A DNA stretch of 33,383 nt, taken from assembly GCA_003576975.1 (NCBI GenBank), contig QEVD01000012.1, forward strand, positions 1 to 33,383, read 5' to 3'. Of the stretch, positions 7,203-25,621 are shown piece after piece. The stretch is from Candidatus Zhuqueibacterota bacterium (GTDB lineage Bacteria; Zhuqueibacterota; Zhuqueibacteria; Zhuqueibacterales; Zhuqueibacteraceae). Under the pieces are notes generated by a model. It saw only the letters and a list, made by a program, of their open reading frames with translations, was not told the origin of the DNA and did not search any database. The translations under genes were made by a program, and so were the position numbers. How positions within the stretch are numbered: the stretch's first letter is position 1; each line of letters begins with the position of its first letter.

Positions 7203-7428
7203 TTCATTTAATGGTAATTTTTGTACACCAATATATAAAAAATGAGTATTCGTGCAAGAGTATTTTGGAATTATTTTGTTCACTATTTTATCTTTTTCAG
7301 AATCCCATCACGTAGACACGTCGTAGCCCAAGACAGGATTTTCCTGTTGCAGTTATCGGCTCGCCTGAGTAATTTTGGTCAACAAACGTCTGGGTTTTCA
7401 GCCGATCAAAAAGATGGAGGAACTATTT

Positions 7429-9826: not shown

Positions 9827-10273
9827 ATGTTTTTGAATAAGCGTCTAAGTTTTTCTATGCGTTTTGCTGATGGCATCGCGATACTGCGTGCTGCCGAGCT
9901 TGTCGCTGATATTCTGGAGAACGCCACCCTGAGCACGGCGGCCGAGGATTACGCGTGGCAAATCAGAGACATTGGTGCCGTGGATTTCACCTCCGGTAAG
10001 ATTCACATTGATCCTACATGCAGTGAATACAAAGTGAACAATAAGAGAATAAAATCCTTTTCGCTTCTCGCTTATGTAGAACAAGCCCTAAAGTTGGCAG
10101 AGTACGAAAAGGATGAGAACGGTATCATCGTTGCTCACGTTCCAAACGTTTCAGGCTTTTTTTCCCAGGGCGATAATTTTGAAGAGGCGCGTGATAATCT
10201 TCGGGATGCCATCGAGGGCAATCTGGTTGTTGCCTTGCAGCTCGGCTTCGAAATTCCACAAAGCCGGTTTTAA
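9827..10273 (+). CDS. composite ORF ending in a HicB-like antitoxin domain
   Basis: A 148-residue ORF starting three bases after the preceding stop. The last 69 residues (from 10064: LLAYVEQALKLAEYEKDENG...) match HicB-type antitoxins of the form AYV-A---A-YE----G---A-VP, with the usual GDNFEEARDNLRDAIEGNLVVAL helix. The first 79 residues (RFADGIAILRAAELVADILE, RDIGAVDFTSGKIHIDP) are not part of HicB and I do not recognise them. No ATG, GTG or TTG start lies close before the HicB part, so it either is translated as a fusion or has lost its own start. There is no hicA toxin gene beside it, so this looks like an orphan or decayed antitoxin. Confidence 0.55.
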   Translation: MFLNKRLSFSMRFADGIAILRAAELVADILENATLSTAAEDYAWQIRDIGAVDFTSGKIHIDPTCSEYKVNNKRIKSFSLLAYVEQALKLAEYEKDENGIIVAHVPNVSGFFSQGDNFEEARDNLRDAIEGNLVVALQLGFEIPQSRF

Positions 10274-11917: not shown

Positions 11918-12504
11918 ACGACGGGGCGTTGCGGGTGGCGATCGGATCGCTGCGACCGCCGAAGGTCGAGGCGGTGCGCGCGGTGATGAGTCAGGTGGCG
12001 CCGTTTCTTGGTTGCCAGCCGAAGCAAATCAATTACATCGCGCGTGAGGTGGATAGCGGGGTGTCGAGCATGCCGCTATCGATTCACGAGATTCGACGCG
12101 GCGCGCGCAATCGTGCGGAAGCCGCGCGTGCGTTGGTGGAAAGTGAGTACGGCCCGGTCGATTTTGCCATCGGCCTTGAGGGTGGGTTGTTCATACTCAG
12201 CACGGTACGTATCGAGCGCGTGCATTTGCAAAGCTGGGCGTTTGTGGAGCGCGAGGGCATAGGCCATTATGGCAGTTCGATGAGTATGCCAGTGCCGGCT
12301 GCCGTGTCACATGCCGTGATCGAACAGAAGGAAGATTTGGCCAAAGTCATCGACCGGTTTGCGGGCCGCAAGGACGTGCGCAACAACGACGGCGCGTTCG
12401 GCGTGCTCAGTCGCGGTTTTCTGAATCGCCAGCAGGCATTTGAGCTGGCACTGTTCGCGGCGCTGGCGCCGTTTTACCATGAAAAAATGTATAACCAATC
12501 ATGA
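11914..12504 (+). CDS. DUF84 inosine/xanthosine triphosphatase
   Basis: A 196-residue member of the DUF84 (YjjX-like) house-cleaning NTPases, which hydrolyse non-canonical purine triphosphates such as ITP and XTP. Typical blocks are VAIGSLRPPKVEAVR at the N-terminus, SGVSSMPLSIHEIRRGARNRA, FAIGLEGGLF and the C-terminal GVLSRGFLNRQQAFE. It overlaps the deaminase by ATGA at its start and the methyltransferase by ATGA at its end. The grouping with a deaminase that yields inosine-type products makes functional sense. The C-terminal tail is short. Confident in family; substrate from family knowledge. Confidence 0.88.
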   Translation: MNDGALRVAIGSLRPPKVEAVRAVMSQVAPFLGCQPKQINYIAREVDSGVSSMPLSIHEIRRGARNRAEAARALVESEYGPVDFAIGLEGGLFILSTVRIERVHLQSWAFVEREGIGHYGSSMSMPVPAAVSHAVIEQKEDLAKVIDRFAGRKDVRNNDGAFGVLSRGFLNRQQAFELALFAALAPFYHEKMYNQS

Positions 12505-13064
12505 CCCTCTGGCGCATCAAGGCGCCGTTTTATTCCCGCATTCGCCGCCTGCCTCCGTTCAGCCTCATGCTTCAGCAAGAGCGCACGCAACTTGCCAAGT
12601 TGCTGCAGCAGATTGATCTCCCCATTGTCAGTCATTTAGATTTAGGCAGCGGCTCGGGTGACACGCTTGCGTTGTTTTCGAAATATGAAATTCAGGTATG
12701 CGCCGATGCTTCATTTGCCATGCTGCAGCAATCCCCGGCAACGAGAAAGACGCTTGCCCGCGCGGAATGCCTGCCCTTTGCCGATCATTCCTTTGATTTT
12801 GTCACTGCCATCGGATTGTTGGAGTATATAGCTGATGCTGAAAAATTTTTGGTCGAAGTCAGCAGAGTGCTCAAGTCCGGCGGCATGTTTTTGTTTACCT
12901 CGGCCCCGCCGAATGCTGCAAATTGCATGCGGCTTATTCTGGGAGAACGCCTTTATTATTGGAGAGAGAAAGAGGTAACGATCTTGTTGCACAAATCAGG
13001 CTGGGCCATCCGCGGGACAGCGCGATCCTGGATGCAACAGCAATGGCTGGCGCAGGCGCGGTGA
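12501..13064 (+). CDS. class I SAM-dependent methyltransferase
   Basis: A 187-residue protein with the Rossmann-type methyltransferase signature: motif I SHLDLGSGSGDTLALF (about 43-58), an acidic strand end (VCADAS), LPFADHSFDFVTAIGLLEYI and the late VLKSGGMFLFTS. This is the Methyltransf_11 pattern. It is shorter than many relatives but has a complete core. It is the last gene of the deaminase operon (four-base overlap with DUF84). The substrate is unknown; it would make S-adenosylhomocysteine, which could in turn feed the deaminase if that enzyme accepts it. Confidence 0.8.
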   Translation: MTLWRIKAPFYSRIRRLPPFSLMLQQERTQLAKLLQQIDLPIVSHLDLGSGSGDTLALFSKYEIQVCADASFAMLQQSPATRKTLARAECLPFADHSFDFVTAIGLLEYIADAEKFLVEVSRVLKSGGMFLFTSAPPNAANCMRLILGERLYYWREKEVTILLHKSGWAIRGTARSWMQQQWLAQAR

Positions 13065-13111
13065 GTAAAGAGACGATTATCTGCTCAGCCGGAGGTTTTG
13101 CAGCAAAATAA

Positions 13112-13171
13112 CGGATAGGTGGATTGATGGGATGATGGATCTTATCAATCCAATCATCCAACGATCCAATC
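13112..13171. repeat. second GGATTGATGG-type inverted repeat
   Basis: CGGATAGGTGGATTGATGGG pairs imperfectly with the segment ending CCAACGATCCAATCC. It is related to 6058-6134 and lies just before the cytochrome operon promoter. It may end transcription from the methyltransferase gene. Confidence 0.6.
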
Positions 13172-13193
13172 CCGGTTGTCCAACCCTTCCCGC

Positions 13194-13222
13194 TTGACAT
13201 TCAAAACTTTTTAATTTATATT
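13194..13222 (+). promoter_or_regulatory. sigma-70 promoter of the Rieske/cytochrome b operon
   Basis: Perfect -35 box TTGACA (13194-13199), a 17-bp spacer and -10 box TATATT (13217-13222). Transcription should begin near 13229, leaving a leader of about 49 bases before the ATG at 13278, which is preceded by AGGAGAGGG. Confidence 0.8.
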
Positions 13223-13277
13223 CGCGCCATTCAAAAATTAACTCCGGCTGCACCGAACCCACAACTGAGGAGAGGGC

Positions 13278-14051
13278 ATGCAAGCGGTCATCAACAAGAT
13301 GCGGGACAGTTTGCTCAAATCCCAAGTCTGGAAGTCGATGTTCCGTCACGATTACGAAGACTCGCAGCGTAATCGTCTTCTACAGGTGCTGGATAATTTC
13401 TGGATGCACCTTCACCCCACCAAGCTACCCCGTCACGGCACATATATTCGCTTCACCTGGTGCATGGGCGGCATCACGTTCCTGCTGTTTTTGGTCACCG
13501 CGGTCACCGGCGTATTGCTGATGTTTTATTATCGCCCCACCGCCGAGTACGCTTTTGCCGATATGAAGTATCTGCAATTCGACGTGCCTTTTGGCATGTT
13601 CCTGCGCAACATGCACCGGTGGGCGGCGCACGGCATGGTGATCGCCGTATGGCTGCACATGTTCCGCGTTTTTCTCACCGGCTCTTACAAACCACCGCGC
13701 GAATTCAATTGGGTGGTTGGCGTTATTTTGCTCACCACAACCCTCTTGCTGTCCTTCACCGGTTATTTGCTGCCGTGGGATCAGCTTTCCATCTGGGCGG
13801 TAACCGTGGGTACCAACATGGCGCGCGCCACGCCGCTGCTCGGTCACGAAGGCCCGTTCGGCCCGGAATTAGGCATGAAGCCGGACAACGATGTGCGCTT
13901 CGTGCTGCTGGGCGGCACGCAAGTCGGCCCGCCCACACTGCTGCGCTTTTACGTGCTGCATTGCATTTTCCTGCCGCTGTTTGCGGCGGTTTTTATGGGC
14001 GTGCATTTTTGGCGCGTACGCAAAGACGGCGGCATCTCCGGCCCGCTGTAA
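13278..14051 (+). CDS. petB: cytochrome b6-like subunit (N-terminal half of split cytochrome b)
   Basis: A 257-residue four-helix cytochrome b carrying the two b haems and the quinone sites of a Rieske/cytochrome b complex. Haem ligands are His113/His127 ([15 protein letters not shown], 14 apart) and His228/His243 (15 apart). The 15-residue step in the second pair is the b6 pattern; bc1-type proteins have 14. Cys62 (TWCMGGITF) aligns with the cysteine that covalently holds haem ci in b6f (YCLGGIT). [16 protein letters not shown] and the terminal [10 protein letters not shown] also match b6. An N-terminal extension of about 45 residues precedes the first helix compared with plant b6. First gene of the operon; the gap to the next gene is 109 bases. 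The symbol follows homology only; nothing here suggests photosynthesis. Confidence 0.93.
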
Positions 14052-14160
14052 CACCGGCGTTCTCCCCGCTCTCGTAAAAATCTCCTTTTGAGTTGCCGGC
14101 CGGCTGCTTCGAATCGCCGGCCCGCGCAGGGCTGTCTCATGCAGAGAAGGTTGGATATTC

Positions 14161-15042
14161 ATGGAAAATCTCAAATACATTCTCAGCAATACCGACAATG
14201 TCCCCATTGTAGCGCTGCTGTTCATCATTCCATTTTATATCTGGCTGTGGTGGCGGGAGGCCAGCCGCAACGACTTGCGCATCGCCAATGGCGAATTCGG
14301 AAAGATGAAAGAGGAAGGACAGGATCGCATTCACACCTGGCCGTATCTCGCGCGCAACGAGTTTCTCTCCGCAATAATTATGATGATCATTCTCACCGTG
14401 TGGGCAATCATGCTCGATGCGCCGCTGGAGGAGCCGGCCAATCCTTCGCGCACGCCGAATCCTTCCAAAGCGCCGTGGTACTTCCTCGGCTTGCAGGAAA
14501 TGCTGGTTTATTTTGATCCCTGGATTGCCGGCGTGGTGCTGCCGACGCTGATCATCATCGGCTTGATGGCGATTCCCTACATCGACCCCAACAAAAAGGG
14601 TAACGGCTATTACACCTTCAAAGAAAGGCCCTTTGCGATCTCCGTGTTCCTGTTCGGCTTCGTCGTGTTGTGGCTCTCGTTGATCATTTTGGGAACGTTT
14701 TTACGCGGGCCGGGCTGGAACTTTTTTGCGCCGTGGGAACTGTGGGATCCCCACAAAGTTGTGGCCATGGTGAACGTCGATTTGCATGAATGGTTCGGCA
14801 TCCGCTCCAAGTTGGGCGCAGCCATTTTCGGATTTATTCTCGTGGGCGGATATTTCGCGCTGATTCCAATCTATTGGTTTTGGAAAAAGGACAAATCCGA
14901 AATTCTCAAAACACTCGGGCCCCTGCGCTACAGCGTCAATGCGTTTTTGTTTTTGTCGATGATGGGTTTGGTGATCAAGATCATTTTGCGCATTGGATTC
15001 AATATCAAATATATCTGGGTGACGCCCTGGTTTAATGTGTGA
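14161..15042 (+). CDS. enlarged subunit IV-like C-terminal half of cytochrome b
   Basis: A 293-residue membrane protein. The central part holds the Qo-site block equivalent to PEWY (here APWY at residues 104-107, in NPSKAPWYFLGLQEMLVYFDPW) and the helices of subunit IV. I count about six hydrophobic segments: one before the conserved region (VPIVALLFIIPFYIWLWW), ARNEFLSAIIMMIILTVWAI, the post-APWY helix, ISVFLFGFVVLWLSLIILGT, then two more at the C-terminus. Plant subunit IV has only three helices and about 160 residues, so this version is extended at both ends. The Glu of PEWY is replaced by Pro, with possible effects on quinol proton release. No haem ligands are expected in this half. Confidence 0.88.
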   Translation: MENLKYILSNTDNVPIVALLFIIPFYIWLWWREASRNDLRIANGEFGKMKEEGQDRIHTWPYLARNEFLSAIIMMIILTVWAIMLDAPLEEPANPSRTPNPSKAPWYFLGLQEMLVYFDPWIAGVVLPTLIIIGLMAIPYIDPNKKGNGYYTFKERPFAISVFLFGFVVLWLSLIILGTFLRGPGWNFFAPWELWDPHKVVAMVNVDLHEWFGIRSKLGAAIFGFILVGGYFALIPIYWFWKKDKSEILKTLGPLRYSVNAFLFLSMMGLVIKIILRIGFNIKYIWVTPWFNV

Positions 15043-15189
15043 TGTTTTATTGGACTTGTTTCGATTTGGCGCCAAAAGGCTGGACGATACCACACATTTT
15101 CTGATTAATGCTCTAAAAACTTGCCCCCAACGGTGAACCGGTAAAACGTGTTCTCATCGTTGGCTGCCGCTATCCGCCGGGCATTTCAC

Positions 15190-15204
15190 AAGGAGGAGAC
15201 GTTG
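15190..15204 (+). promoter_or_regulatory. strong ribosome site selecting a TTG start
   Basis: AAGGAGGAG at 15190-15198 precedes TTG at 15202. The upstream GTG (15148) would add 18 residues with no ribosome site, so TTG is the likely start of the octahaem protein. Confidence 0.7.
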
Positions 15205-17847
15205 GCCAAGCGTTCCGATATTCCGATTGAAGAGCGGGATTACAGCCACATCTATTTCGTTTGCAGCGCGCTGCTCGCTGTCGCAACATTCTGGGCGGTC
15301 ATCGACATGATCTGGGTGCGCTCACCCTGGCAACGGACACAGCGCGAGTTCAATCGCATTGAAAAGGAAGATTTGCAAGCCAAGCTGAACGCCGAGGTCG
15401 AAAAGCTCACCAACGGTGAATCGAAAGATCAGTATGCCAGCCTTCTGGCAAGCTTGCAGGAAGCACGCGCAGGCATGAAAAGCCCGGAATACCAGCAAGC
15501 GTTACAAGATTCCGCCAAAGTGGCGCTTGAAATCCAGCAAGCGGTGCAACAATATCGCTTTGCGAAGAGCGAGGCTGACGCCGAGTATTACCTTTATAAA
15601 GAAGCGCAGTATCACAACGACGAGCCGGCTCAGGAAAAACATGGCAAAAATGTCGAGAGGCTGACCGGCGAGTATACGGAATGGAAAAGCAAGTGGGATG
15701 CCGCTGAGGAGAAAAAACGCGACGTGCAAGCGCGGCTGGCAGGCTTTCGCCAGCAGATGACTGATATTCATGGGCAACTCGCCGCCTTGACCAAAGAGCG
15801 GGACGAGCTGCAATTCCGCATCGACCGTGTCGACGAGCGCCCCATTAAAATTCAACAAGTCGTCATGTCGGAGTTTGTGAAAAGCAATTTCGGCAATTTC
15901 ATCAGCACTGTTGATCGCTGCCACACCTGCCACGTTTCATTCAATCGCAAAGGCTTTGAAGAAGCGGAGACGCCTTTTCGCACGCACAGCTCGCTGGACA
16001 CGCTGCTGCGCCTCCACCCCGTCGAACGGTTCGGTTGCACACCGTGCCACGAGGGCCAAGGCCCGGCTCTGCAAAACGTGAAATTTGCGCACGGCTTTGC
16101 CAAATTCTGGCTGCATCCGCTGCTGACCGGCAAATATGTACAGGCTGGTTGCAACAAATGCCACGCGAAAGAGCTTCGCCTGCAGTATGCGGAGAATCTC
16201 AACAAGGCCAAGCGCATGGTGTTCGATCTCGGCTGTTACGGCTGCCACGAAATTAGCGGCTACGAGACGCTTGACCGCATCGGCCCGGATTTGAGCCGGA
16301 TTGCGCAGAAGCTCGAGCCCGGTTTCGTGTACGGCTGGCTGCGCGACAACCGTGAGTTCCGGCCGCATTCGCGCATGCCGAACCCGATGTATACGCATGA
16401 AGAAGCCGCAGCCGCCACCGCTTATTTGTTCGATGCCAGCAACAAAAACGGCTGGTCTCCGGCGCCGATGCCGGCCAGCGGCAACGCGGCACGCGGTGAA
16501 GGCCTGGTGGAAACCGTGGGTTGCAAAGGTTGCCACGTGGTCGATGACAGCGATCGCGAACTGCGCCCGAACGATCTGCCTTATGACATGGCGCCGGATC
16601 TCAGCGCCGCCGCTGCGAAAGCCTCATCGCAGTGGCTGTTTGATTGGATCAAGAATCCTAAAAGGTTTTCTCCCACCACGCGCATGCCGAATTTGCGTCT
16701 GAGCGATCAAGAAGCCGCAGATATCGTCGCTTATTTGGAAACATTCAAGAGCCAGATCTCGCTGCCGGCAAATTACACCGCGGCGCTGCCCGATCTCTCC
16801 GATCAAAATTTGATCAACGAAGGCAAAGCCGTGCTGCGGAATTTTGGCTGTCATGGCTGTCACGTGATTCCCGGCTTGGAAAATGAAGGCCGCGTTTCCG
16901 TCTCGTTGAATGAGTTTGGCGCCAAGCCGGTCGAAGAGTTGTTTTATGGCGACGCGCTGGCGAAAAAGGCAGTCGAAAAAACTTGGGAAGGCTGGACGAC
17001 CGGCAAGCTGAAAAACTCGCGCTTGTATGCCACCGAAGCCGTGATTCAGCGCATGCCAAATTACCAACTCTCCGAAGAAGATGCCACTTCGCTGGCCGTC
17101 TTGCTGCGCTCGTGGGATGGCCGCGTGATCGGCGAACGTTATGTCAAACAGTGGAGCGGCCAGGATGAAGCGGTGCATGCCGGACGCTTGTTGGTACGCA
17201 AATACAATTGCACCGGCTGCCATTTGATTGAAGGCGAAGGCTGGGACATCAAACCCTCGCTCACGCAGGCGCTGGGCAAAGAAGGCATCGACGAAATTGC
17301 CGCTTCGGCTTATGCGCCCCCGGATCTCATCAGTCAAGGCCAGAAAGTGCAGGGCGATTGGTTCTTCCGGTTCTTGAAAGAGCCGAAAACCGGCGAGATT
17401 CGTCCCTGGCTGCGTACACGTATGCCGACCTTCAATTTCAGCGATAAAGAAGCCAATACCTTGGTGGACTATTTCAAATCGCTGGAAGGCGAAGCGCCAG
17501 GCTTTACGTATTTGCCTGAGTTCGAGCTGACCGCGGAGCAACGCGCCGGCGCGCTGAAGCTGGTTTCGAAAGATTACTTCGATTGCTTTTCATGCCATCA
17601 GCAGGGCAATATCAAGCCGGAAGGCCCGCCGGACGGTTGGGCGCCGGATTTGGCTATGGCAAGCCAGCGGCTCAATCCGAACTGGGTTGCGGCATGGATT
17701 CGTGACCCGCAAGCGCTGCAGCCCGGCACCAAGATGCCGTCGTTTTATCCGGATTCGTATCCGCCGGACGTGTTGGACGGCGATCCTGACAAGCAGATCG
17801 TGGCATTACGCAATTATCTGCTGAGTTTGAGCAACGGCAAACGATAG
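15202..17847 (+). CDS. membrane-anchored coiled-coil octahaem cytochrome c of the b6f-like complex
   Basis: An 881-residue protein. One N-terminal transmembrane helix (about residues 16-39) is followed by a long charged coiled coil (about 45-215), then the haem region. Eight CxxCH sites begin at residues 240, 279, 317, 345, 441, 550, 670 and 795. The first three are closely spaced with no nearby Met motif. The last five each precede a class I cytochrome c methionine motif (SRMPNP, TRMPNL, QRMPNY, TRMPTF, TKMPSF), suggesting five successive mono-haem domains. It lies where cytochrome f or c1 would be encoded, so it is the likely electron acceptor from the Rieske protein and an extended wire to terminal acceptors. 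No catalytic nitrite-reductase or oxidase domain is visible. Haem count is read directly; role is inferred from position. Confidence 0.9.
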   Translation: MAKRSDIPIEERDYSHIYFVCSALLAVATFWAVIDMIWVRSPWQRTQREFNRIEKEDLQAKLNAEVEKLTNGESKDQYASLLASLQEARAGMKSPEYQQALQDSAKVALEIQQAVQQYRFAKSEADAEYYLYKEAQYHNDEPAQEKHGKNVERLTGEYTEWKSKWDAAEEKKRDVQARLAGFRQQMTDIHGQLAALTKERDELQFRIDRVDERPIKIQQVVMSEFVKSNFGNFISTVDRCHTCHVSFNRKGFEEAETPFRTHSSLDTLLRLHPVERFGCTPCHEGQGPALQNVKFAHGFAKFWLHPLLTGKYVQAGCNKCHAKELRLQYAENLNKAKRMVFDLGCYGCHEISGYETLDRIGPDLSRIAQKLEPGFVYGWLRDNREFRPHSRMPNPMYTHEEAAAATAYLFDASNKNGWSPAPMPASGNAARGEGLVETVGCKGCHVVDDSDRELRPNDLPYDMAPDLSAAAAKASSQWLFDWIKNPKRFSPTTRMPNLRLSDQEAADIVAYLETFKSQISLPANYTAALPDLSDQNLINEGKAVLRNFGCHGCHVIPGLENEGRVSVSLNEFGAKPVEELFYGDALAKKAVEKTWEGWTTGKLKNSRLYATEAVIQRMPNYQLSEEDATSLAVLLRSWDGRVIGERYVKQWSGQDEAVHAGRLLVRKYNCTGCHLIEGEGWDIKPSLTQALGKEGIDEIAASAYAPPDLISQGQKVQGDWFFRFLKEPKTGEIRPWLRTRMPTFNFSDKEANTLVDYFKSLEGEAPGFTYLPEFELTAEQRAGALKLVSKDYFDCFSCHQQGNIKPEGPPDGWAPDLAMASQRLNPNWVAAWIRDPQALQPGTKMPSFYPDSYPPDVLDGDPDKQIVALRNYLLSLSNGKR

Positions 17848-17941
17848 GCGCGGCATGCACAAGTCAAGGTCACGCAGGTATCTGGTTTTTGCGCGGCGCA
17901 CGGCCTCGCTGGCAAAGAACATGTTAGCGCCTAATTCCCCA

Positions 17942-17964
17942 AAGCCGGACGAGCCGGAACCAAA
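17942..17964 (+). repeat. 23-bp dispersed repeat AAGCCGGACGAGCCGGAACC, copy 1
   Basis: AAGCCGGACGAGCCGGAACC plus AAA occurs here and again at 18557-18579, on either side of the 4-TM gene. Each copy is followed by loosely repetitive text (ACGAAGAC, GCAAAGA). The short ORF spanning this region looks like translated repeat rather than a gene. Confidence 0.8.
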
Positions 17965-18126
17965 GAGAGAAAACTCATCCCGCAAAGGCGGGACGAAGAC
18001 GCAAAGAACCCGCAAAACTTTTCTTTGCGTATGTTGGCGGCTTTGCATCTCTGTGTGAATTCTTTGCTTTTTTGCGAAGAGTTCACTCTAAAGAGACCAA
18101 GGCTTTCAAGCTGAAAGGCAGGGAAT

Positions 18127-18558
18127 ATGAATCCAGTTCTTAGAAATGTATTGGCCGTTATCGCCGGAGTCGTGGTTGGCAGCCTGGTAAACATGGGACT
18201 CATCACGATAAGCGGCAAGGTTATCCCGCCCCCTCCCGGTGTCGATGTGACGAATTTTGAAAGCCTGAAATCTTCAATGCATTTATTTGAGCCTAGGCAT
18301 TTCATTTTTCCGTTTTTGGCTCATGCGTTGGGTACGTTGGCAGGTGCTTATGTCGCCTCCCGTCTGGCGGCAAGCCATAAATTAAAATTTGCGTTAGGCG
18401 TGGGCGTCTTTTTCCTGCTTGGAGGCCTGACCAATGTCTTCATGCTTCCCTCGCCGACCTGGTTTGCAGTATTGGATTTAGTCGGCGCTTATATTCCCAT
18501 GGCGTGGTTTGGTCACAGATTGGCTGAAAAAAGCAGCGTCAAACTTGCAAGAGCCTAA
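18127..18558 (+). CDS. conserved four-helix membrane protein of unknown function
   Basis: A 143-residue integral membrane protein with about four helices: residues 5-28 (NVLAVIAGVVVGSLVNMGLI), about 58-78 (FIFPFLAHALGTLAGAYVAS), about 86-106 and about 113-132. A PPPGVD loop follows the first helix and HFIFPFLAHALGTL starts the second. I recall similar proteins annotated only as hypothetical in Bacteroidota and relatives. It lies between the octahaem cytochrome and Rieske genes, but 279 bases after the former and bracketed by copies of a 23-bp repeat. It may therefore be an insertion into the operon rather than a subunit of the complex. The start ATG has a GGCAGGG ribosome site. Confidence 0.75.
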   Translation: MNPVLRNVLAVIAGVVVGSLVNMGLITISGKVIPPPPGVDVTNFESLKSSMHLFEPRHFIFPFLAHALGTLAGAYVASRLAASHKLKFALGVGVFFLLGGLTNVFMLPSPTWFAVLDLVGAYIPMAWFGHRLAEKSSVKLARA

Positions 18559-18579
18559 GCCGGACGAGCCGGAACCAAA
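18557..18579 (+). repeat. 23-bp dispersed repeat AAGCCGGACGAGCCGGAACC, copy 2
   Basis: Identical to 17942-17964; it overlaps the stop codon of the 4-TM gene. The pair brackets a segment of about 615 bp that contains this gene alone. Confidence 0.8.
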
Positions 18580-18947
18580 TTTTACCACGAAGACCCAGAG
18601 ACACCAAGATTTTTTGTTTTTTTTAGCGCGATAGAGCTTCAAAGAGATTAAGCTGGTGTTGAGCACAGAGCCTGAAGCAAAAACGCGCAGCGTGCGCCAT
18701 TGTTCGCGGACGTTGCCGTAATTTGTAGAAGTACCCTCTTGAAATGTCAGTCCGGTGAATCTTGTGAAGGACGCGGCGTGGTGTTAACACTTCACGGGTT
18801 CTCCACGGCATGACAAGATTGCCATTCATGCAAATCAGCGTAACTGCTCAAACGCTTCGGTTGACGCGCATGCGTCTGCGCGGAACCGGTTGGCGGGATC
18901 GATATCCGACAGAATTCTAAACACTCTCGAGCTAGAGGAGGCTGAAC
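18559..18947. other. 389-bp non-coding spacer rich in repeats, upstream of the Rieske gene
   Basis: It holds the tail of the 23-bp repeat, a run TTTACCACGAAGACCCAGAG typical of dispersed repeat text, and a palindromic element at 18745-18815. No gene or clear promoter is seen, so the Rieske gene may be read from the operon promoter or from an unrecognised one. A strong ribosome site (AGAGGAGG, 18934-18941) ends the spacer. Confidence 0.55.
18745..18815. repeat. palindromic element, TGTCATTC..GAATCTTGTGAAG family, copy 2
   Basis: TGTCAGTCCGGTGAATCTTG and five further bases (18745-18769) pair imperfectly with 18790-18815 around a loop of about 20 bases, the same layout as 4398-4468 and 21626-21695. 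This is the most diverged of the three. Confidence 0.65.
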
Positions 18948-19613
18948 GTGTCCGAAGAAAAAAAAGAAACTGCTGCCGGGGAACCGGGAAATGCGGAAAA
19001 AAAAGCAGCGCCCGCGAAGGCCGCGCCTGCAAAAGCAGCGGCTCCGCCCGCAGCCGGTGAAGTCACTAAAGCAAAACCTGGAGCAAAATCAACGTTAACG
19101 GAGCCGATCGCTCCCGGAACCCTCTGGATGTCGCGGCGCAATTTTCTCTCGCGCGCAGGCTGGACGGCGTTCTTCAGCTTTCTCGGCATGATGTTGCTCG
19201 GCTCGTTGCGCTATATGTTTCCGCGCGTGTTGTTCGAGCCTTCCACGGTTTTTAAAGCCGGCTTGCCGGATGATTACCCCATCGGCGCCGTCAGCACGAA
19301 ATGGGTGAAAGATTACCGCACGTGGATTGTGCGCAATGACAAGGGTTTCTATGCCATTTTCGCGCAATGTACACATCTCGGCTGCACCCCGCGCTGGCTC
19401 GAAGCGGAAGCCAAATTCAAATGCCCGTGTCACGGCAGCGGCTTTACTATGGACGGCCTGAATTTTGAAGGGCCGGCGCCGCGGCCGCTGGAACGCGTGA
19501 AAATCGGCATCTCCGAAGACGGCCAATTACTCGTCGATACGAGTATTCGCTACCGCGAGGAACAAGGTCAATGGAGCAACCCCGACGCCTTTTTACCGCT
19601 CGGCGTATCGTGA
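18948..19613 (+). CDS. petC: Rieske iron-sulfur protein
   Basis: A 221-residue Rieske [2Fe-2S] protein. Cluster ligands are Cys141 and His143 (CTHLGC) plus Cys159 and His162 (CPCHGSGF); Cys146 and Cys161 would form the disulfide. The first 45 residues are Ala/Lys/Pro-rich and cytoplasmic by prediction. A twin-arginine motif (SRRNFLSRAGW) precedes the single membrane helix (FFSFLGMMLLGSLRY), as in Rieske proteins exported by Tat. The GTG start at 18948 has AGAGGAGG six bases upstream. It would accept electrons from quinol at cytochrome b and pass them to the octahaem cytochrome. Rieske genes usually precede cytochrome b; here it is last and is followed at once by a terminator. Confidence 0.94.
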   Translation: MSEEKKETAAGEPGNAEKKAAPAKAAPAKAAAPPAAGEVTKAKPGAKSTLTEPIAPGTLWMSRRNFLSRAGWTAFFSFLGMMLLGSLRYMFPRVLFEPSTVFKAGLPDDYPIGAVSTKWVKDYRTWIVRNDKGFYAIFAQCTHLGCTPRWLEAEAKFKCPCHGSGFTMDGLNFEGPAPRPLERVKIGISEDGQLLVDTSIRYREEQGQWSNPDAFLPLGVS

Positions 19614-19631
19614 GCAAATGCTGCAAAGCCA

Positions 19632-19688
19632 GGGGCAAACGGTAAGAGGTGAATATTCCAAAATCCCCCTTGCCGTTTGCCCCTTTTT
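19632..19688 (+). terminator. intrinsic terminator of the cytochrome operon
   Basis: GGGGCAAACGGTAAG (19632-19646) pairs with CTTGCCGTTTGCCCC (19669-19683) over 15 bp with one G-U pair, around a 22-base loop, and TTTTT follows. It begins 19 bases after the Rieske stop codon. Confidence 0.88.
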
Positions 19689-19702
19689 CGTTGGGTGGGA
19701 AA

Positions 19703-19804
19703 GGGTGCAAGCAGTTTGCTGTCATTCCGAGTCGAGGTTGTCTGGAGCCTCGTTAAATATCCGGGCAGTGGGAAGGGGTGCAAGCAGTTTGCTGTCATTC
19801 CGAG
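19703..19804 (+). repeat. 29-bp exact direct repeat, period 73
   Basis: GGGTGCAAGCAGTTTGCTGT plus CATTCCGAG occurs at 19703-19731 and 19776-19804. Each copy ends in TGTCATTCCGAG, the outer arm of the palindromic element family, so these may be solo half-elements. No gene lies here. Confidence 0.85.
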
Positions 19805-19889
19805 GGGTTTTGTGCCGCGCCAGGTTCATCATCGCTTTGCGCCTCGTTTAGTGAGATTCAATTAAAATGATCTTTGCCGTGACTTAACG

Positions 19890-19918
19890 TTGCAACGTAG
19901 CGCGAAGCAATGTATATT
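19890..19918 (+). promoter_or_regulatory. sigma-70 promoter of the nucleotidyltransferase cluster
   Basis: TTGCAA (19890-19895), a 17-bp spacer and TATATT (19913-19918). The predicted start near 19925 leaves a leader of about 20 bases before the small two-TM gene at 19945. Confidence 0.7.
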
Positions 19919-19944
19919 ACCGCATCTCTTGAAGGGAGCATATT

Positions 19945-20139
19945 CTGAAGCAGGCGCTCTGGTATTTTGCCAAAGCTTTTCAAATGCTCGGTTTGTTCAT
20001 CGTATTTTTTGGCATCATCATCGGCTTGTCTGATCCGCATGGCGATGAAGCCTTCAAGGCCGAGTTTAGATATGCCATTACCGGCGTGCTCGTGTTCGGC
20101 GTCGGCTGGCTGATGGAACGAATGTTTGCAAGACGATGA
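19945..20139 (+). CDS. 64-residue two-helix membrane protein with probable CTG start
   Basis: An open frame bounded by an in-frame stop at 19930 encodes a small protein with two hydrophobic helices (ALWYFAKAFQMLGLFIVFFG and YAITGVLVFGVGWLMERMF) joined by a charged loop (SDPHGDEAFKAEFR), ending RR. GGGAG at 19934-19938 sits six bases before CTG (19945); the only in-frame ATG is 14 codons later, inside the first helix and without a ribosome site. A good promoter lies just upstream and the glgC-like gene follows 25 bases after its stop. The gene is real by composition and context, but function is unknown. It could lead the sugar-nucleotide operon. Confidence 0.7.
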   Translation: MKQALWYFAKAFQMLGLFIVFFGIIIGLSDPHGDEAFKAEFRYAITGVLVFGVGWLMERMFARR

Positions 20140-20164
20140 CGGTCAACCTTCCCGGGTGTTGGGC

Positions 20165-21460
20165 ATGAGAAAAATACTTGCGATGATTCTTGCCGGCGGG
20201 CGCGTCGACGAGCTTTCGGTGTTAACGCTGATCCGGCCCAAAGCGGCCGTGCCGTTCGGCGGTTTGTATCGCGTCATCGACTTTCCCATGAGCAACCTCA
20301 TGCACTCCGGCATCGAAAATGTCGGGATTCTCTCGCAATACCGCTCATATTCGTTGATCAATCACATTGGCAACGGCGCCTCGTGGGAGATGGTGGGCCG
20401 CGATCGTAGCGTCACGATTTTGCCGCCCTTTAAAACACAAACACTTTCGAGCTGGTATCGCGGCAATGCCGATGCAGTTTATCAAAACCTCGGTTATCTG
20501 CGCATTCACCGCCCCGATCTTGTGCTGGTGCTCTCCGGGGATCACATCTATTCGATGAATTACAATCCGCTAATCGAGTTTCACCTCGAAAATCGTGCGG
20601 ATTTGACCATGGCGTTTACGCGCATTAACAAGGCGCAAGCCACGCGCTTCGGCGTCGGCCGCATTGAGCTGGAAACCGGCAAACCCGGCGGCCGCTTGCT
20701 GGAATATGCCGAAAAACCCGAAACTTCTCCGGATTGGCCGGAGCAGGAATGCTGGGCCTCGCTCACCATCTATCTCTTTTCTGCAAAAGTGCTGGCCGAG
20801 GTTCTTGCTAAACACGCGCAGAGCGATCCGACAACGTATGAATTCGGACGAGACATCATCCCCGCTGCCGTAAAAAACTATCGGGTATTTGGCTACGCGT
20901 ATGAGGGCTATTGGGGCTACACGCGCACGATTGATGAATACTGGCAGACCAACATGGATATGCTCGGCGAAAAGCCCATGATCGAGCCTGAGCGCTGGAA
21001 AATCCGCACCAATCTCGAACACAGCGCGGTGCGCGATCGCCCGCCTGCGTTGATCGGGCCGCAAGCGAAGATCGAGAATTCGCTGATCTACAGCGGCTGC
21101 CGCGTGTACGGCGCGGTGAAGAATAGCATTCTCTTTCCCGGCGTGGTGATTGGCGAGAATGTGCAGGTGGACGATTCCATTTTGATGTTTGACGCCAAAG
21201 TTGCGCCGGAATGCGTGTTGCATAAAGTTATCACGGATTCGGAGGTGGAGATTGGCCGCGGGTGTTTGATCGGCAATGGCGATCCCACAATTCACAATGA
21301 AGAATACTCGGATTTGTTGCGCAGCGGCATTACGCTGATCGGCCGTGGCGCGATTCTACCCGAGGGCATTACGATCGGCTCGAATTGCATTGTGCATCCG
21401 GAGCTGGAGCCGTCGCGGTTTCACGACAAGGTGTATGAATCGGGTGTGTCGATTTCTTAA
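20165..21460 (+). CDS. GlgC-like sugar nucleotidyltransferase with altered nucleotide loop
   Basis: A 431-residue member of the glucose-1-phosphate adenylyltransferase family: N-terminal nucleotidyltransferase domain (about 1-265) and a left-handed beta-helix (about 290-420). The usual loop GGxGxRLxPLT is here GGRVDELSVLT, losing the glycine and arginine that hold the nucleotide phosphates. The remaining catalytic signatures stay: VPFGGLYRVIDFPMSN, the SGDHIY aspartate and the LLEYAEKPE lysine. The start ATG at 20165 is chosen because homologues begin MRKILAMILAGG. It may act as the regulatory or modified partner of the second GlgC-like protein, as GlgD does in Firmicutes, but retained catalytic residues argue against a wholly dead enzyme. 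Confidence 0.85.
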   Translation: MRKILAMILAGGRVDELSVLTLIRPKAAVPFGGLYRVIDFPMSNLMHSGIENVGILSQYRSYSLINHIGNGASWEMVGRDRSVTILPPFKTQTLSSWYRGNADAVYQNLGYLRIHRPDLVLVLSGDHIYSMNYNPLIEFHLENRADLTMAFTRINKAQATRFGVGRIELETGKPGGRLLEYAEKPETSPDWPEQECWASLTIYLFSAKVLAEVLAKHAQSDPTTYEFGRDIIPAAVKNYRVFGYAYEGYWGYTRTIDEYWQTNMDMLGEKPMIEPERWKIRTNLEHSAVRDRPPALIGPQAKIENSLIYSGCRVYGAVKNSILFPGVVIGENVQVDDSILMFDAKVAPECVLHKVITDSEVEIGRGCLIGNGDPTIHNEEYSDLLRSGITLIGRGAILPEGITIGSNCIVHPELEPSRFHDKVYESGVSIS

Positions 21461-21794
21461 GATAAGCTGGGGCGGCAGCGCTTTAGTGGTGCAAGTTTTC
21501 GGTTGATTTTTACCGGCGGCGTAGCCCGGGCCGCGTTAAAATCAAATGACAAACTTTCTATGACATTTATGCACAACACATCTGGCTCAGACAGATTCAA
21601 GAAAAAAAAGTTTATCAATCCTTTTATGTCATCCAGGGATCTTGTGAAGTTGCGGGCAAATTATCGAGTACTTCACAAGATTCGTCTGAATGACATTTCG
21701 AAGGAACTACTCCTGCAAATTAAGGTACCAGCGAACTAGGCGTTGTGGCCTGGTCAAGAGTTGCCGATATGAAACAAATCATATCCTTTCTCCC
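21461..21794. other. 334-bp non-coding spacer between the two glgC-like genes
   Basis: It contains one palindromic element (21626-21695) and AT-rich text before it (AAATGACAAACTTTCTATG). I see no terminator and no clear promoter. The repeat could divide expression of the two genes. Confidence 0.5.
21626..21695. repeat. palindromic element, TGTCATTC..GAATCTTGTGAAG family, copy 3
   Basis: ATGTCATCCAGGGATCTTGT plus GAAGT (21626-21650) is inverted at 21670-21695 (ACTTCACAAGATTC...) around a loop of about 19 bases. Same design as 4398-4468. Confidence 0.85.
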
Positions 21795-23054
21795 ATGAAG
21801 AAAACCCTCGCCATGCTGCTGGCCGGCGGCGTCGGCAGCCGGCTGAACATTCTCGCGCACGCGCGCGCCAAGCCGGCTGTGCCGTTCGGCGGCATGTATC
21901 GCATCATCGACTTCACCCTGAGCAATGCCAAGAATTCCGGCATCATCAATGTCGGCGTGCTCACGCAATACAAGCCGCTTTCGTTGATGGAACATATCGG
22001 CGGCGGCGAGCCATGGGATTTCATGGGCCGTATGCGCGGCGCGAAAATTCTGCCCCCGCGTACCGGCGAAAAGGATTCCGATTGGTATAAAGGCACGGCC
22101 GACGCCATCCGACAAAATGCCGACTACATCCGCAATTTCGATGCGGATCAGGTATTGATTCTCTCCGGCGATCACATTTACTACATGGATTACAGCGAGA
22201 TGGTCGCCTTTCATAAAGCCCGGAATGCCGATCTCACCATCGCCATGATGCGGGTACCGTGGGATCAAACACATCATTTCGGCATTGCCACGACCGATGC
22301 CCGCGACCGCATCACGGCCTGGGAAGAAAAGCCCAAACAGGCAAAAAACAATCTGGCCTCGATGGGCGTCTATGTGTTCAACACTGATTTTCTATTTCAC
22401 TGTTTGCGCGCGATTCCTGAGCACGATTTTGGCAAACATGTGATCACCGAAGTCATCAAAACCCACACGGTATGCGCCTTTCCGTTTAGCGGCTATTGGC
22501 GTGACGTCGGTACGCTTTACGCGTACTGGGATGCCAACATGGATTTGCTGCGACCGGATTCCGGTTTGGATATTTCGCGCTGGAACGTGTACACCAATCT
22601 CGAAGAAGAAGGCCGGTCCGGCGACCGGCCGCCCACGCGCATTCTCAAAAGCGCGAACGTAGAGAACAGTTTTATCGCGCAGGGCTGTGTGATCGAAGGC
22701 GAGGTGCGCAATTGCGTCGTGTCGCCAGGCGTGCATATCGGCAAAGGCGCAGCAGTACACGACTCCGTGATCATGCACGACAGCGTGATCGAGTCTGGCG
22801 CGACCCTGTCATTCGTGATAGCCGACAAGCTTTCGCATTTTCGCAACGATTGCAAAGTCGGCGCCGGCGACCGCACAACGCCCAACCGCCGCTTTCCCGA
22901 TCATCTCAGTGAAGGATTGACGGTGGTCGGCAAACTGGCGACCGTGCCGGCGAAAGTGACGATCGGCTGCAACTGCTTTATTCACCCGCAAAGTACTGAA
23001 ACAAGCTATACTACTGATTTCGTAAAGGACGGCGAGACAATCGGATTTAACTAA
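21795..23054 (+). CDS. glgC: glucose-1-phosphate adenylyltransferase
   Basis: A 419-residue enzyme making ADP-glucose from glucose-1-phosphate and ATP, the committed step of bacterial glycogen synthesis. It has the standard loop GGVGSRLNILAHARAKPAVPFGG, the SGDHIYYMDY aspartate, the AWEEKPKQA lysine and a C-terminal beta-helix with hexapeptide repeats (VHIGKGAAVHDSVIMHDSVI). The ATG at 21795 matches the family N-terminus (MKKTLAMLLAGG); the longer open frame upstream is not conserved text. Ribosome site is weak. About 35-40% similar by eye to its upstream neighbour but with an intact nucleotide loop. The two probably form a mixed or paired system. Confidence 0.92.
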   Translation: MKKTLAMLLAGGVGSRLNILAHARAKPAVPFGGMYRIIDFTLSNAKNSGIINVGVLTQYKPLSLMEHIGGGEPWDFMGRMRGAKILPPRTGEKDSDWYKGTADAIRQNADYIRNFDADQVLILSGDHIYYMDYSEMVAFHKARNADLTIAMMRVPWDQTHHFGIATTDARDRITAWEEKPKQAKNNLASMGVYVFNTDFLFHCLRAIPEHDFGKHVITEVIKTHTVCAFPFSGYWRDVGTLYAYWDANMDLLRPDSGLDISRWNVYTNLEEEGRSGDRPPTRILKSANVENSFIAQGCVIEGEVRNCVVSPGVHIGKGAAVHDSVIMHDSVIESGATLSFVIADKLSHFRNDCKVGAGDRTTPNRRFPDHLSEGLTVVGKLATVPAKVTIGCNCFIHPQSTETSYTTDFVKDGETIGFN

Positions 23055-23188
23055 ACCATTTCGGTTGGAATCGAACAGGAGCGCGAACCGTTTCTTCCAA
23101 TTAGAATCGAGCATGACTTCCCTCTGCATGTTGGTTTTGCCGGATTGCCTCATGGCCTTAGGACTTCTAACACGAACAACGAGCCACC

Positions 23189-25621
23189 GTGAAAGCCATT
23201 TTACTTGCAGGCGGAATGGGGACGCGTTTGCATCCCCTGACATTAACCTGCCCCAAGCCGCTATTGCCCATCGGCAATCTTCCCATCATCGCCAGAATCA
23301 TTTTCGCGCTGCGCAAGCAAAACATTCGCGAGTTTATTTTCCTGCTGCACTATCAGCCTGAAGCCTTCATCGACGCGCTTGGCGACGGCTCGGCGTACGA
23401 CGCTTCATTTGAATACGTTGCACTGGAAAAGGATTTGAGCACAGCCGGCAGCGTGCGCTGCATTCGCGAGTATGTGCGCGAAACCTGCCTCGTTCATGCC
23501 GCGGACATTCTTGCGGAAGCGCCGGTGCGCGCCATGCTCGATTTTCATCGCAGCAAGCGCAGCCTCGCGACGCTCGCGCTTTATCCGCAACCGGCGCCGT
23601 TGTCGTATGGCATCGTGCGCCGCCAGCCCGACGGCCGCATCCGGCAATTTCTTGAAAAACCCACCTGGCCGGAAGTGTTCAGCGATTGGGTAAATGCCGG
23701 TGTGTATCTCATCGAACCGGAATTGGTGGATCACATTCCTGAAAGTGATCATCAAATTTATTTTGAGAAACACGTTTTTCCGCAGCTCGCGGCTGCCGGC
23801 GCGCCGCTGTACGGCTTTCCCATCACCGGCTACTGGCGCGATGTCGGCACGCCGGAGGATTTGCGCGTCGCCAATTTGGAATTTCTGGATGGCCAGCTTC
23901 CTGCCGCGTTTTTGACGCGCGACGAAACCGCGCGCCATCGCCACGAACGCACGTTTCTGGCCTACGGCGAAAGCAATAGCATTGCCAACACCGCGTTGTT
24001 GTCCGAAACCGTGATCAAAAGCGGATGCCAGATTGCGGCCAATGCCAAGATCACGCGCAGCGTGCTGCTTGATAATGTGAACGTGCTTGCCGGCGCCATC
24101 ATTGATTCCGCCATTATCATGGACGATGCCTGCATCGGCGAATCGGCGTGCTTGTTGCCGAACAGCTTGATCGGTGAAGGCGCTGAAATCGCTGCGCAAT
24201 CGATCATACAGGCTCACGGCGTTGTCAATCCCAAACAACGAGTTTCCTCGGGGCAAGTTGTTCCCACGCGCCGCGTGTTGCCCACCGGCTATTTGCGCGG
24301 CTTTGTCGACGGCGGAAGCGTGATGGGCATGTGTTTCAATGCCGATTTCATGACGTGGCTTGGCAAAGCATTCGGCTCACGGCAAGCGCTTGCCGCTGCC
24401 AGCAACAGCGAGGCGGTACACAGGCCTATTTTACTTTGCGCCGCCGATGCCGGAAACATGCGCGAGTTGGTTACCCCGCTTATCGCCGGACTGACGGCCG
24501 CGGGTTGTGACGTTGCTTGTTTGCAGCGGGGCACGTTGCCGCTCGCACGGCATCTGCTTTTCTCAAAAAATTATGCTGGCGGCATATATGTTGGCAAAGA
24601 AGATGACACGAATCTCCTGCGTGTTGCGTTGCTGACTGGTTCCGGCGAAGATCTCACCTCTCTCGAAACCTGTTCATTGGAGTTCGTCGATCTGCTTGAA
24701 CATGGCCGGCAGGGAAGCGTAACAGCCGTTGACGAGCGCTATGCCTATGAACACTATCTGCAAGCGCTTGCGAATGTCGTTCCGCCCGGGCGGGTTGACT
24801 CTCCTGCGCCTGTGTTTGTCAGTATTGCCAACGCGAAGATCGAGCCTTTGCTGCAACGTTTCGTCGAGCGTCTGCAATTGCCGCTCCGTATTAATTCGCT
24901 GCCCGGAGACGTTGTTGTCGCATCACCGGTCGAAACCGAGGGTTGGCATTTTGAAATTGATAGCGCCGGCGAGAAGCTGAAGGTTTTCTTCAAGAACGAT
25001 GCCGGTATGCGCACCACGATCTCAGATGGCGCGCTTGCAGAGTTGTTGCGGCAACAGGTTAATGGCGAGGTGAAGCTGCTGTTTAATTGGCTGATGTTGC
25101 CAACCTGCAATCGCGAAGAAGACCCGCGCATGATTCGTGTTCCGGGCGTCAAGGCGAATTTTGTAGATTTTGCTCGCCGGGAGAAAATACCGTCATGGCT
25201 GAGCTTTGATGGCCAGGGCAGCATTACGATTTCTGCCTGGCAATCTTATCCTGATGCCTTAATGGTTCTTGTATATCTTTTGCCCGGATTGGCCGCGCTG
25301 GCGCGGCGCAATGACGATGCCACTTTGCGCCAACAGCAATTGTTATCCTGCACAAACGAACTGAAGGCGATGTTGATGCGGCGGTTGTTGGAGAATTTTG
25401 CCGGCAACGTGACCGGCATTAGCGACGGCATTCGAGTGGGCGCCGAGGCCGAATGCGTCATTGTCAGACCCTGCGCCGGGATTGACGCGCTGCAGATTTT
25501 TTATGCGGAGAGCCCGTTCAATGAAAAACGGAATTCCCTGGCGGCTTTGGTTACAAAGAATTTGACGGCCTGGATAAAAGAAAAGGAAGACAGGTTTATG
25601 AAGAATGGCAGGAGGAATTAG
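23189..25621 (+). CDS. mannose-1-phosphate guanylyltransferase-like / degenerate phosphomannomutase fusion
   Basis: An 810-residue fusion. Residues 1 to about 235 are a nucleotidyltransferase (LAGGMGTRLHPLTLTCPKPLLPIGN, LEKPTWPEVF, GYWRDVGTPEDL). Residues about 250-370 form a hexapeptide beta-helix (IAANAKITRSVLLDNVNVLAGAIIDSAII). Residues about 375-800 follow the phosphohexomutase fold. In active mutases a serine in a TASHNP-like loop carries the phosphate; the corresponding place here reads LLFSKNYAGGIYVGKEDD, so the mutase half is probably inactive and may be regulatory. The start is GTG (MKAILLAGG). Similar fusions are known in cyanobacteria and other phyla. Likely role is making an NDP-sugar for polysaccharide; the sugar is not certain. 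Confidence 0.85.
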   Translation: MKAILLAGGMGTRLHPLTLTCPKPLLPIGNLPIIARIIFALRKQNIREFIFLLHYQPEAFIDALGDGSAYDASFEYVALEKDLSTAGSVRCIREYVRETCLVHAADILAEAPVRAMLDFHRSKRSLATLALYPQPAPLSYGIVRRQPDGRIRQFLEKPTWPEVFSDWVNAGVYLIEPELVDHIPESDHQIYFEKHVFPQLAAAGAPLYGFPITGYWRDVGTPEDLRVANLEFLDGQLPAAFLTRDETARHRHERTFLAYGESNSIANTALLSETVIKSGCQIAANAKITRSVLLDNVNVLAGAIIDSAIIMDDACIGESACLLPNSLIGEGAEIAAQSIIQAHGVVNPKQRVSSGQVVPTRRVLPTGYLRGFVDGGSVMGMCFNADFMTWLGKAFGSRQALAAASNSEAVHRPILLCAADAGNMRELVTPLIAGLTAAGCDVACLQRGTLPLARHLLFSKNYAGGIYVGKEDDTNLLRVALLTGSGEDLTSLETCSLEFVDLLEHGRQGSVTAVDERYAYEHYLQALANVVPPGRVDSPAPVFVSIANAKIEPLLQRFVERLQLPLRINSLPGDVVVASPVETEGWHFEIDSAGEKLKVFFKNDAGMRTTISDGALAELLRQQVNGEVKLLFNWLMLPTCNREEDPRMIRVPGVKANFVDFARREKIPSWLSFDGQGSITISAWQSYPDALMVLVYLLPGLAALARRNDDATLRQQQLLSCTNELKAMLMRRLLENFAGNVTGISDGIRVGAEAECVIVRPCAGIDALQIFYAESPFNEKRNSLAALVTKNLTAWIKEKEDRFMKNGRRN

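Follow-up and report, generated by a model that had tools for sequence, protein, structure and literature searches.

The DNA analysed here (the window) is a stretch of 33,383 nucleotides on contig QEVD01000012.1 of GenBank assembly GCA_003576975.1, from a Candidatus Zhuqueibacterota bacterium of the KSB1 phylum. On its forward strand we found four genes predicted to encode a Rieske/cytochrome b complex in which an octahaem cytochrome c takes the place of cytochrome f or c1. The first gene (13278-14051) encodes a b6-type cytochrome b of 257 amino acids (aa), matching Pfam Cytochrome_B at 7.7e-44 and cytochrome b6 in the Protein Data Bank (PDB; 1q90_B) at 7e-50. The second (14161-15042) encodes a subunit IV of 293 aa (Pfam Cytochrom_B_C, 8.7e-07; b6f subunit IV 1vf5_B, 2.3e-07), and the third (15202-17847) an 881-aa octahaem cytochrome c with one N-terminal membrane helix and eight CxxCH motifs (Pfam Cytochrom_C, 7.9e-28). 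The fourth (18948-19613) encodes a Rieske protein of 221 aa (Pfam Rieske, 2.6e-08), matched by PDB entry 9rk3 (Kustd1480) at 5.2e-47. These open reading frames (ORFs) and their Pfam matches agree with the gene set given in a first-pass annotation of the same DNA, namely a b6-type cytochrome b, an enlarged subunit IV, an 881-residue membrane-anchored octahaem cytochrome and a Rieske protein of the twin-arginine (Tat) type. The octahaem gene starts with TTG at 15202. A GTG start at 15148, giving 899 aa, was rejected, since AAGGAGG precedes the TTG and the aligned relatives begin at this codon or a few residues off.

The haem-b ligands of the window cytochrome b are H113, H127, H228 and H243. Across 35 aligned cytochromes b, H127, H228 and H243 are kept in every row and H113 in 34. 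C62 aligns with the haem ci cysteine of b6 (1q90_B alignment). This cysteine is present in 22/35 rows, which come from KSB1 and Deltaproteobacteria/Binatia loci with a stalked octahaem protein (see below) and from L099 (our labels are L for loci, G for genomes and C for contigs); rows from Zixiibacteriota and Ignavibacteriales have glycine at this position. Close to the N terminus, H44 is kept in 34/35 rows, the remaining row (L029) having a gap there. Subunit IV contains six hydrophobic segments, as judged by hydropathy. At the Qo site, all 35 multihaem-linked rows with letters at the motif read APWY (three further rows have none), and L029 reads PEWY. The second residue of PEWY-type motifs varies with phylogeny and tracks quinone type and potential, according to the accessible part of PMC9162462.

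We aligned the octahaem protein with its relatives (alignment A2, 30 rows; residue numbers are those of the window protein). All eight haem histidines, together with H262, H272 and H297, are invariant in 30/30 rows. The latter three histidines belong with CxxCH motifs 1-3 to a three-haem region (15919-16164). Five haem domains follow (16234-17847; CxxCH 4-8), in which M392, M495, M618 and M741 are each present in 30/30 rows and M845 in 26/30, being replaced in L047 and L100-L102. This invariant pattern of histidines and methionines, with a ligand pairing that we infer from it, indicates that haems 1-3 are probably bis-histidine and haems 4-8 His/Met coordinated. The earlier description of three haems without methionine followed by five with it is thereby borne out. 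Relatives with five haems align to approximately residues 208-518. The statement that cytochrome f and c1 are lacking also holds: PF01333 and PF02167 each found no match in eight genomes, that of the window included, and of 14 named genomes used as positive controls, 2 matched for cytochrome f and 1 for c1. We rejected a chance or pseudogene origin of the octahaem gene, because a search of 60 genomes (own included) yielded 12 full-length relatives and one more cut by a contig end.

The window Rieske protein carries the twin-arginine motif SRRNFL and the cluster motifs CTHLGC and CPCHGSGF. An RRxF motif lies within the first 140 residues in 16/26 Rieske ORFs and is absent from the other 10 (the two ORFs of L103 excluded). 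Over 114 positions the window protein shares 60.5% identity with Kustd1480. In a midpoint-rooted tree of 33 Rieske heads, Kustd1480 falls inside a 21-row clade (support 96/89) with 15 Rieskes of stalked loci, window included, four unlinked ones and that of L099; the order within this clade is not settled, and L103 was left out because its Rieske lies in two ORFs. Outside the clade stand Kuste4569, nine Rieskes linked to an NAD(P) oxidoreductase gene, L029 and the b6f Rieske. Kuste4569 has no clear partner, with identities of 46.9% to L044 and 46.5% to L087. The Rieske gene lies 3' of the octahaem gene in all six loci of KSB1 family f1 (window, L031-L035) and 5' of the cytochrome b gene in 10/10 stalked non-KSB1 loci where that DNA could be examined. 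In family f7 it is unlinked, and 7/8 genomes contain a copy 60-70% identical to that of the window. Replacement of the Rieske protein by a cupredoxin in family f7 was rejected on the basis of these unlinked copies. Four of them were examined: two lie near a glgC-like gene, as in the window (L138, 7515-8168; L141, 7729-8400), and two do not (L139, L140).

Within the KSB1 phylum, an octahaem match was found in 15/82 genomes, own included (7/8 in family f1 and 8/8 in family f7); one of the 15 has the gene split over two contigs (G081) and another only a fragment (G030). A wider scan of genome contigs with two peptide patterns returned at least 28 loci, with titles naming candidate division KSB1, Caldithrix sp., Deltaproteobacteria, Binatia/Binataceae, Ignavibacteriales, Zixiibacteriota, Alphaproteobacteria, Acidobacteria/Terriglobia or simply bacterium. 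Two pattern matches on viral contigs were not relatives. The order cytochrome b, subunit IV, octahaem cytochrome is kept in KSB1 loci and the genes occur together across phyla, which upholds the proposal that an octahaem cytochrome stands in for f/c1 in a b6-like Rieske/cytochrome b complex. After removal of duplicates (L079-L083, L085, L092, L093), and with the 5'-truncated L096 not scored for the stalk, the collection comprised 29 stalked loci (window, L031-L043, L084, L086-L091, L094, L095, L097, L098, L103-L106) and ten loci with a short linker of 47-68 residues (L030, L044-L048, L099-L102).

These two sets were searched for an NAD(P) oxidoreductase gene by tblastn (E <= 1e-8), using the L044 protein (Pyr_redox_2, Fer4_20, Fer4) as the query. 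A match was found in 9/10 short-linker loci, the exception being L099, and in each of these nine the Rieske gene comes immediately after the oxidoreductase gene. There was no match in the available DNA of the 29 stalked loci, the 33-kb window included, several of which are on short contigs; a diverged or distant gene would be missed at this threshold. At least 2 kb upstream of the Rieske gene is covered in eight stalked loci (L086-L089, L094, L097, L103, L105), and the window covers 13 kb before the cytochrome b gene. The linker measures 47-53 residues in the NAD(P)-linked clusters (L030, L044-L048, L100-L102), compared to about 200 in the stalked loci. These clusters encode a five-haem or a stalkless octahaem cytochrome, together with a homologous Rieske protein, cytochrome b, subunit IV and N-terminal haem region. 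The octahaem loci and their relatives examined here fall into two types, one stalked with no NAD(P) module beside it, the other with a short linker and mostly with such a module, and the two types sometimes coexist in one genome. No description of the stalked type without an NAD(P) module was found in the open-access literature searched, and among the open-access matches listed there was no report of a complex III in KSB1.

Two variants of the short-linker type were observed. A second KSB1 complex (L030, 4734-9229; L044, 7744-13090; L045, L046, L048) consists of an NAD(P) oxidoreductase, a Rieske protein, a five-haem cytochrome of 404 aa and a cytochrome b fused to a subunit IV-like part; the copy in the window's own genome, L030, is cut by the contig end. 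L047 (7545-9506) and L100-L102 encode NAD(P)-linked, short-linker octahaem cytochromes in which the last haem has no methionine; in these loci a cupredoxin-like gene lies beyond that of the oxidoreductase.

A gene for a blue-copper lipoprotein-like protein lies 3' of the octahaem gene in 15/29 stalked loci (L036-L042, L084, L088, L090, L091, L094, L095, L103, L104); adjacency could not be judged in 5/29 (L043, L086, L098, L105, L106). Four residues (H150, C187, H190, M193) are invariant in 16/16 rows of the lipoprotein alignment (A3), with a C-x2-H-x2-M spacing that we take to be that of amicyanin. The AlphaFold2 model, with a mean predicted local distance difference test (pLDDT) score of 86.8, gave 80 PDB matches at E <= 0.001, which are cupredoxins (best 6hbe, 5.0e-07; amicyanin, 3.6e-06). 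Relatives are present in 14/14 genomes searched. Since the window's own genome has its copy on contig C402, lack of an adjacent gene does not mean that the cell has none. We regard the blue-copper lipoprotein as a candidate electron acceptor; a link between it and the octahaem complex was not described in the open-access literature searched.

The stretch from the membrane helix to the first haem (15313-15918) forms a stalk of approximately 202 residues, mostly helical by AlphaFold2 and by periodicity. The AlphaFold2 model (30 sequences, pLDDT 79.8) places helices at residues 15-71, 75-92, 95-137 and 141-211, with breaks at 72-74, 93-94 and 138-140. A hydrophobic periodicity of about 3.5 residues was detected in segments 95-137 (18/2000 shuffles as strong) and 141-211 (0/2000), and was not significant over the whole of 45-211 (362/2000). 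In the first 25 rows of A2, block 115-137 has a conservation of 0.61, about that of the haem domains, and the other stalk blocks are less conserved (95-114, 0.37; 138-165, 0.41; 166-211, 0.40). This conserved block may be a contact site near a turn. The best Foldseek matches of the octahaem model, weak and above the cut-off, were SH3BP5 and colicins, which are antiparallel helical hairpins. From the model, helical hairpins that clamp the Rieske head or the complex are the most likely fold of the stalk, rather than a straight mast. The annotation had proposed a coiled-coil stalk of about 170 residues; a long helical stalk is indeed predicted, at about 202 residues and as several helices, not a single coil.

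The same annotation suggested an electron wire reaching away from the membrane, and this remains unproven. The stalk would then carry the His/Met haems far out, so that electrons reach partners at the outer membrane or beyond it. Eight haems on a stalk of this length are in keeping with such a wire, as is a cytochrome b that scores near (274.3, cut-off 290) ExtP of Geobacter, which belongs to a selenite/tellurite cluster with outer-membrane parts (accessible text of PMC5877670). However, the division of the predicted stalk into several helices makes a hairpin clamp likelier than an outward wire, the helices of the Kuenenia model wrap round the complex (accessible part of PMC12954380), and none of the 17 window proteins scanned, which do not comprise every ORF, was recognised as a porin or outer-membrane cytochrome. 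We consider the wire improbable.

We interpret the four genes as encoding an octahaem-type Rieske/cytochrome b complex that oxidises quinol, has no adjacent NAD(P) oxidoreductase gene and, by its Rieske protein, is a relative of Kustd1480-1485 (probability about 0.7). This interpretation builds on the four predicted subunits, their cofactor ligands, the lack of cytochrome f/c1 and the clade common with Kustd1480. Cytochrome b and subunit IV would have the Qo site between them, and quinol, probably menaquinol, would be oxidised there. One electron would return to quinone by way of the b haems and probably of haem ci. The second would pass from the Rieske cluster to the octahaem protein, entering at its N-terminal haems (the part common to the five-haem relatives) and continuing through the string of His/Met haems to a periplasmic acceptor. 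The acceptor would often probably be the blue-copper lipoprotein, encoded adjacent or elsewhere, or a dihaem cytochrome, followed by a terminal oxidase. The helical hairpins of the stalk would hold the Rieske head or the complex.

Several observations weigh against this interpretation. The three-haem region is poorly modelled (AlphaFold2 pLDDT <50 in 217-248 and 260-309), stalk residues 45-92 lack a heptad signal (1756/2000 shuffles as strong), and a Foldseek search of the PDB with the octahaem model gave nothing at E <= 0.001. In 35/35 rows APWY lacks the glutamate of PEWY, and the chemistry at the Qo site may therefore be different. Nine of the 29 stalked loci, each with at least 1 kb of downstream DNA (window, L031-L035, L087, L089, L097), have no blue-copper gene next to the octahaem gene, and no Rieske protein of this type was found in f7 genome G036, perhaps owing to an assembly gap.

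In a bolder version, which we put forward as tentative and rather unlikely, the stalked octahaem complexes would form one class of complex III, spread across phyla, that operates without the NAD(P) module, has APWY at its Qo site and passes electrons to a blue-copper lipoprotein. An interface haem held by H44 would then serve electron exchange across the dimer or a cytosolic partner, and not NAD(P)H formation. H44 may be the counterpart of H62 of Kustd1481, as suggested by its position and not by alignment.

In addition to the window complex, its genome encodes an unsplit cytochrome b with a Rieske protein (L029), the five-haem-type cluster L030, two haem-copper oxidases and five NrfD-family genes; one oxidase and one NrfD-family gene share contig C311. 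Given L029, L030 and the other chains, the window complex would be one of several such complexes in this organism. Electrons could also flow in reverse, from a high-potential periplasmic donor through the complex to quinone, as proposed for complex III of nitrite oxidisers. Nitrospina, for which such flow has been proposed, has a similar operon (accessible text of PMC3578206), yet the two haem-copper oxidases, one of them on the contig with an NrfD-family gene, make forward flow the simpler reading, and we judge reversal to be quite improbable here. Least probable of all is NAD(P)H formation as proposed for Kuenenia, in which a low-potential electron would reach a cytosolic NAD(P) oxidoreductase encoded elsewhere: the window Rieske does fall in the Kustd1480 clade, H44 is widely kept (34/35) and the genome does have such an oxidoreductase in L030, but the gene is missing from the available DNA of all 29 stalked loci and sits instead with the short-linker cytochromes, in L030 and eight other loci. 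Comparing the stalked and short-linker types makes it possible to test the role in NAD(P)H formation that has been proposed for the Kuenenia complexes.

The boundaries of the operon were examined separately. A sigma-70-like promoter match, TTGACA-17-TATATT (13194-13222, forward strand), agrees with 11/12 consensus positions and is a pattern match only; sites scoring at least 9 number 7 in 12000-21000 against 5.3 in shuffles, which puts the class near chance. At the other end, a terminator-like hairpin followed by T5 (19631-19684, forward strand) has a folding energy of -32.4 kcal/mol (z -5.0), equalled by 0/200 shuffles; the pattern scan did not return it because its loop is long. The annotation had framed one transcription unit between these two elements. 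Both are present, but the idea of a single unit is weakened by a gap of 1,100 bases (17848-18947) between the octahaem and Rieske genes, which contains a 143-aa ORF (18127-18558, forward strand) with no Pfam or NCBIfam match. The gap was confirmed in a second genome of the species, G081, being 99% identical over 1,100 bases, whereas the two genes are 89-144 bases apart in the other five loci of family f1 (L031-L035). The ORF is present in G081 and absent from L031 and L032, and probably lies outside the complex. It is flanked by 26-base direct repeats at 17939 and 18554 that are 96% alike, and has a 35% relative on contig C729; 153 bases of the gap are 80% similar to a second genomic site (L074).

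Beyond the operon, the window contains three consecutive nucleotidyltransferase genes (20126-25621; NTP_transferase and hexapeptide), the first of which, glgC-like (20126-21460), also lies 3' of the Rieske gene in L031-L035. The window also has genes for a 584-aa protein made up almost entirely of tetratricopeptide repeats (7375-9129) and for a protein matching a UPF0150/HicB-like antitoxin (9827-10273).

Among known systems, the window complex resembles cytochrome b6f in its split cytochrome b, its four haem-b histidines and the cysteine at the haem ci position, and differs in having no cytochrome f, in APWY for PEWY and in a subunit IV of 293 aa compared to 160. It differs from cytochrome bc1 in the lack of c1 from the genome and in the split cytochrome b. 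In Caldithrix, a Rieske/cytochrome b pair without a type 1 monohaem cytochrome nearby has been noted (accessible part of PMC5317091). The nearest NCBIfam models to the window proteins are ExtP and ExtQ of Geobacter. The Ext system (ExtO/P/Q/S) combines a Rieske protein, a cytochrome b, a membrane protein and c cytochromes, with ExtS a 4-haem lipoprotein, as far as PMC5877670 is accessible; membership was rejected, as the scores fall below the cut-offs (ExtP, 274.3 against 290; ExtQ, 64.2 against 150).

Closer likeness is found elsewhere. Nitrospina gracilis has an operon with an Fe-S protein, a split b6/subunit IV and an octahaem cytochrome, and the same structure is reported for Kuenenia and Methylomirabilis (PMC3578206, accessible text). 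By description, the window shares all three of these components with it, including an octahaem protein that is the sole c subunit; the accessible text of that paper describes neither a stalk nor haem ligands. For Kuenenia stuttgartiensis, the accessible part of PMC12954380 presents a model of Kustd1480-1485 with a b6-like cytochrome b, a five-helix subunit IV, hexa- or octahaem c subunits and an NAD(P) oxidoreductase, and with a proposed interface haem b at H62 of Kustd1481. In this model the long helices of Kustd1485 wrap half way round the complex, around the Rieske protein. That Kustd1485 is the octahaem subunit is suggested by the wording "hexa- or octaheme" and "far larger" in the accessible text. 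The window complex is similar in its b6-like cytochrome b, its separate subunit IV with extra helices and its Rieske clade and, compared by description, in a multihaem c subunit that stands in for f and has a membrane helix and long helices. It differs in that Kuenenia has a putative NAD(P) oxidoreductase subunit and none is encoded adjacent at the window locus. Octahaem cytochromes with split-b6 Rieske operons had thus been reported already (PMC3578206; PMC12954380, in their accessible parts), and the suggestion that the architecture might be undescribed falls. As to whether exactly this octahaem subunit belongs to a well-described complex, the kind is reported and the Rieske clade is common, while the subunit itself is matched by description only, and the open-access literature searched yielded no purified complex of this sort. 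On sequence grounds, the window complex is of the known Nitrospina/Kuenenia/Methylomirabilis kind, with the likeness of the octahaem proteins drawn from description and not from alignment. A little-studied kind of complex III, known from anammox bacteria and nitrite oxidisers, would thereby also occur in KSB1 and in several further phyla.

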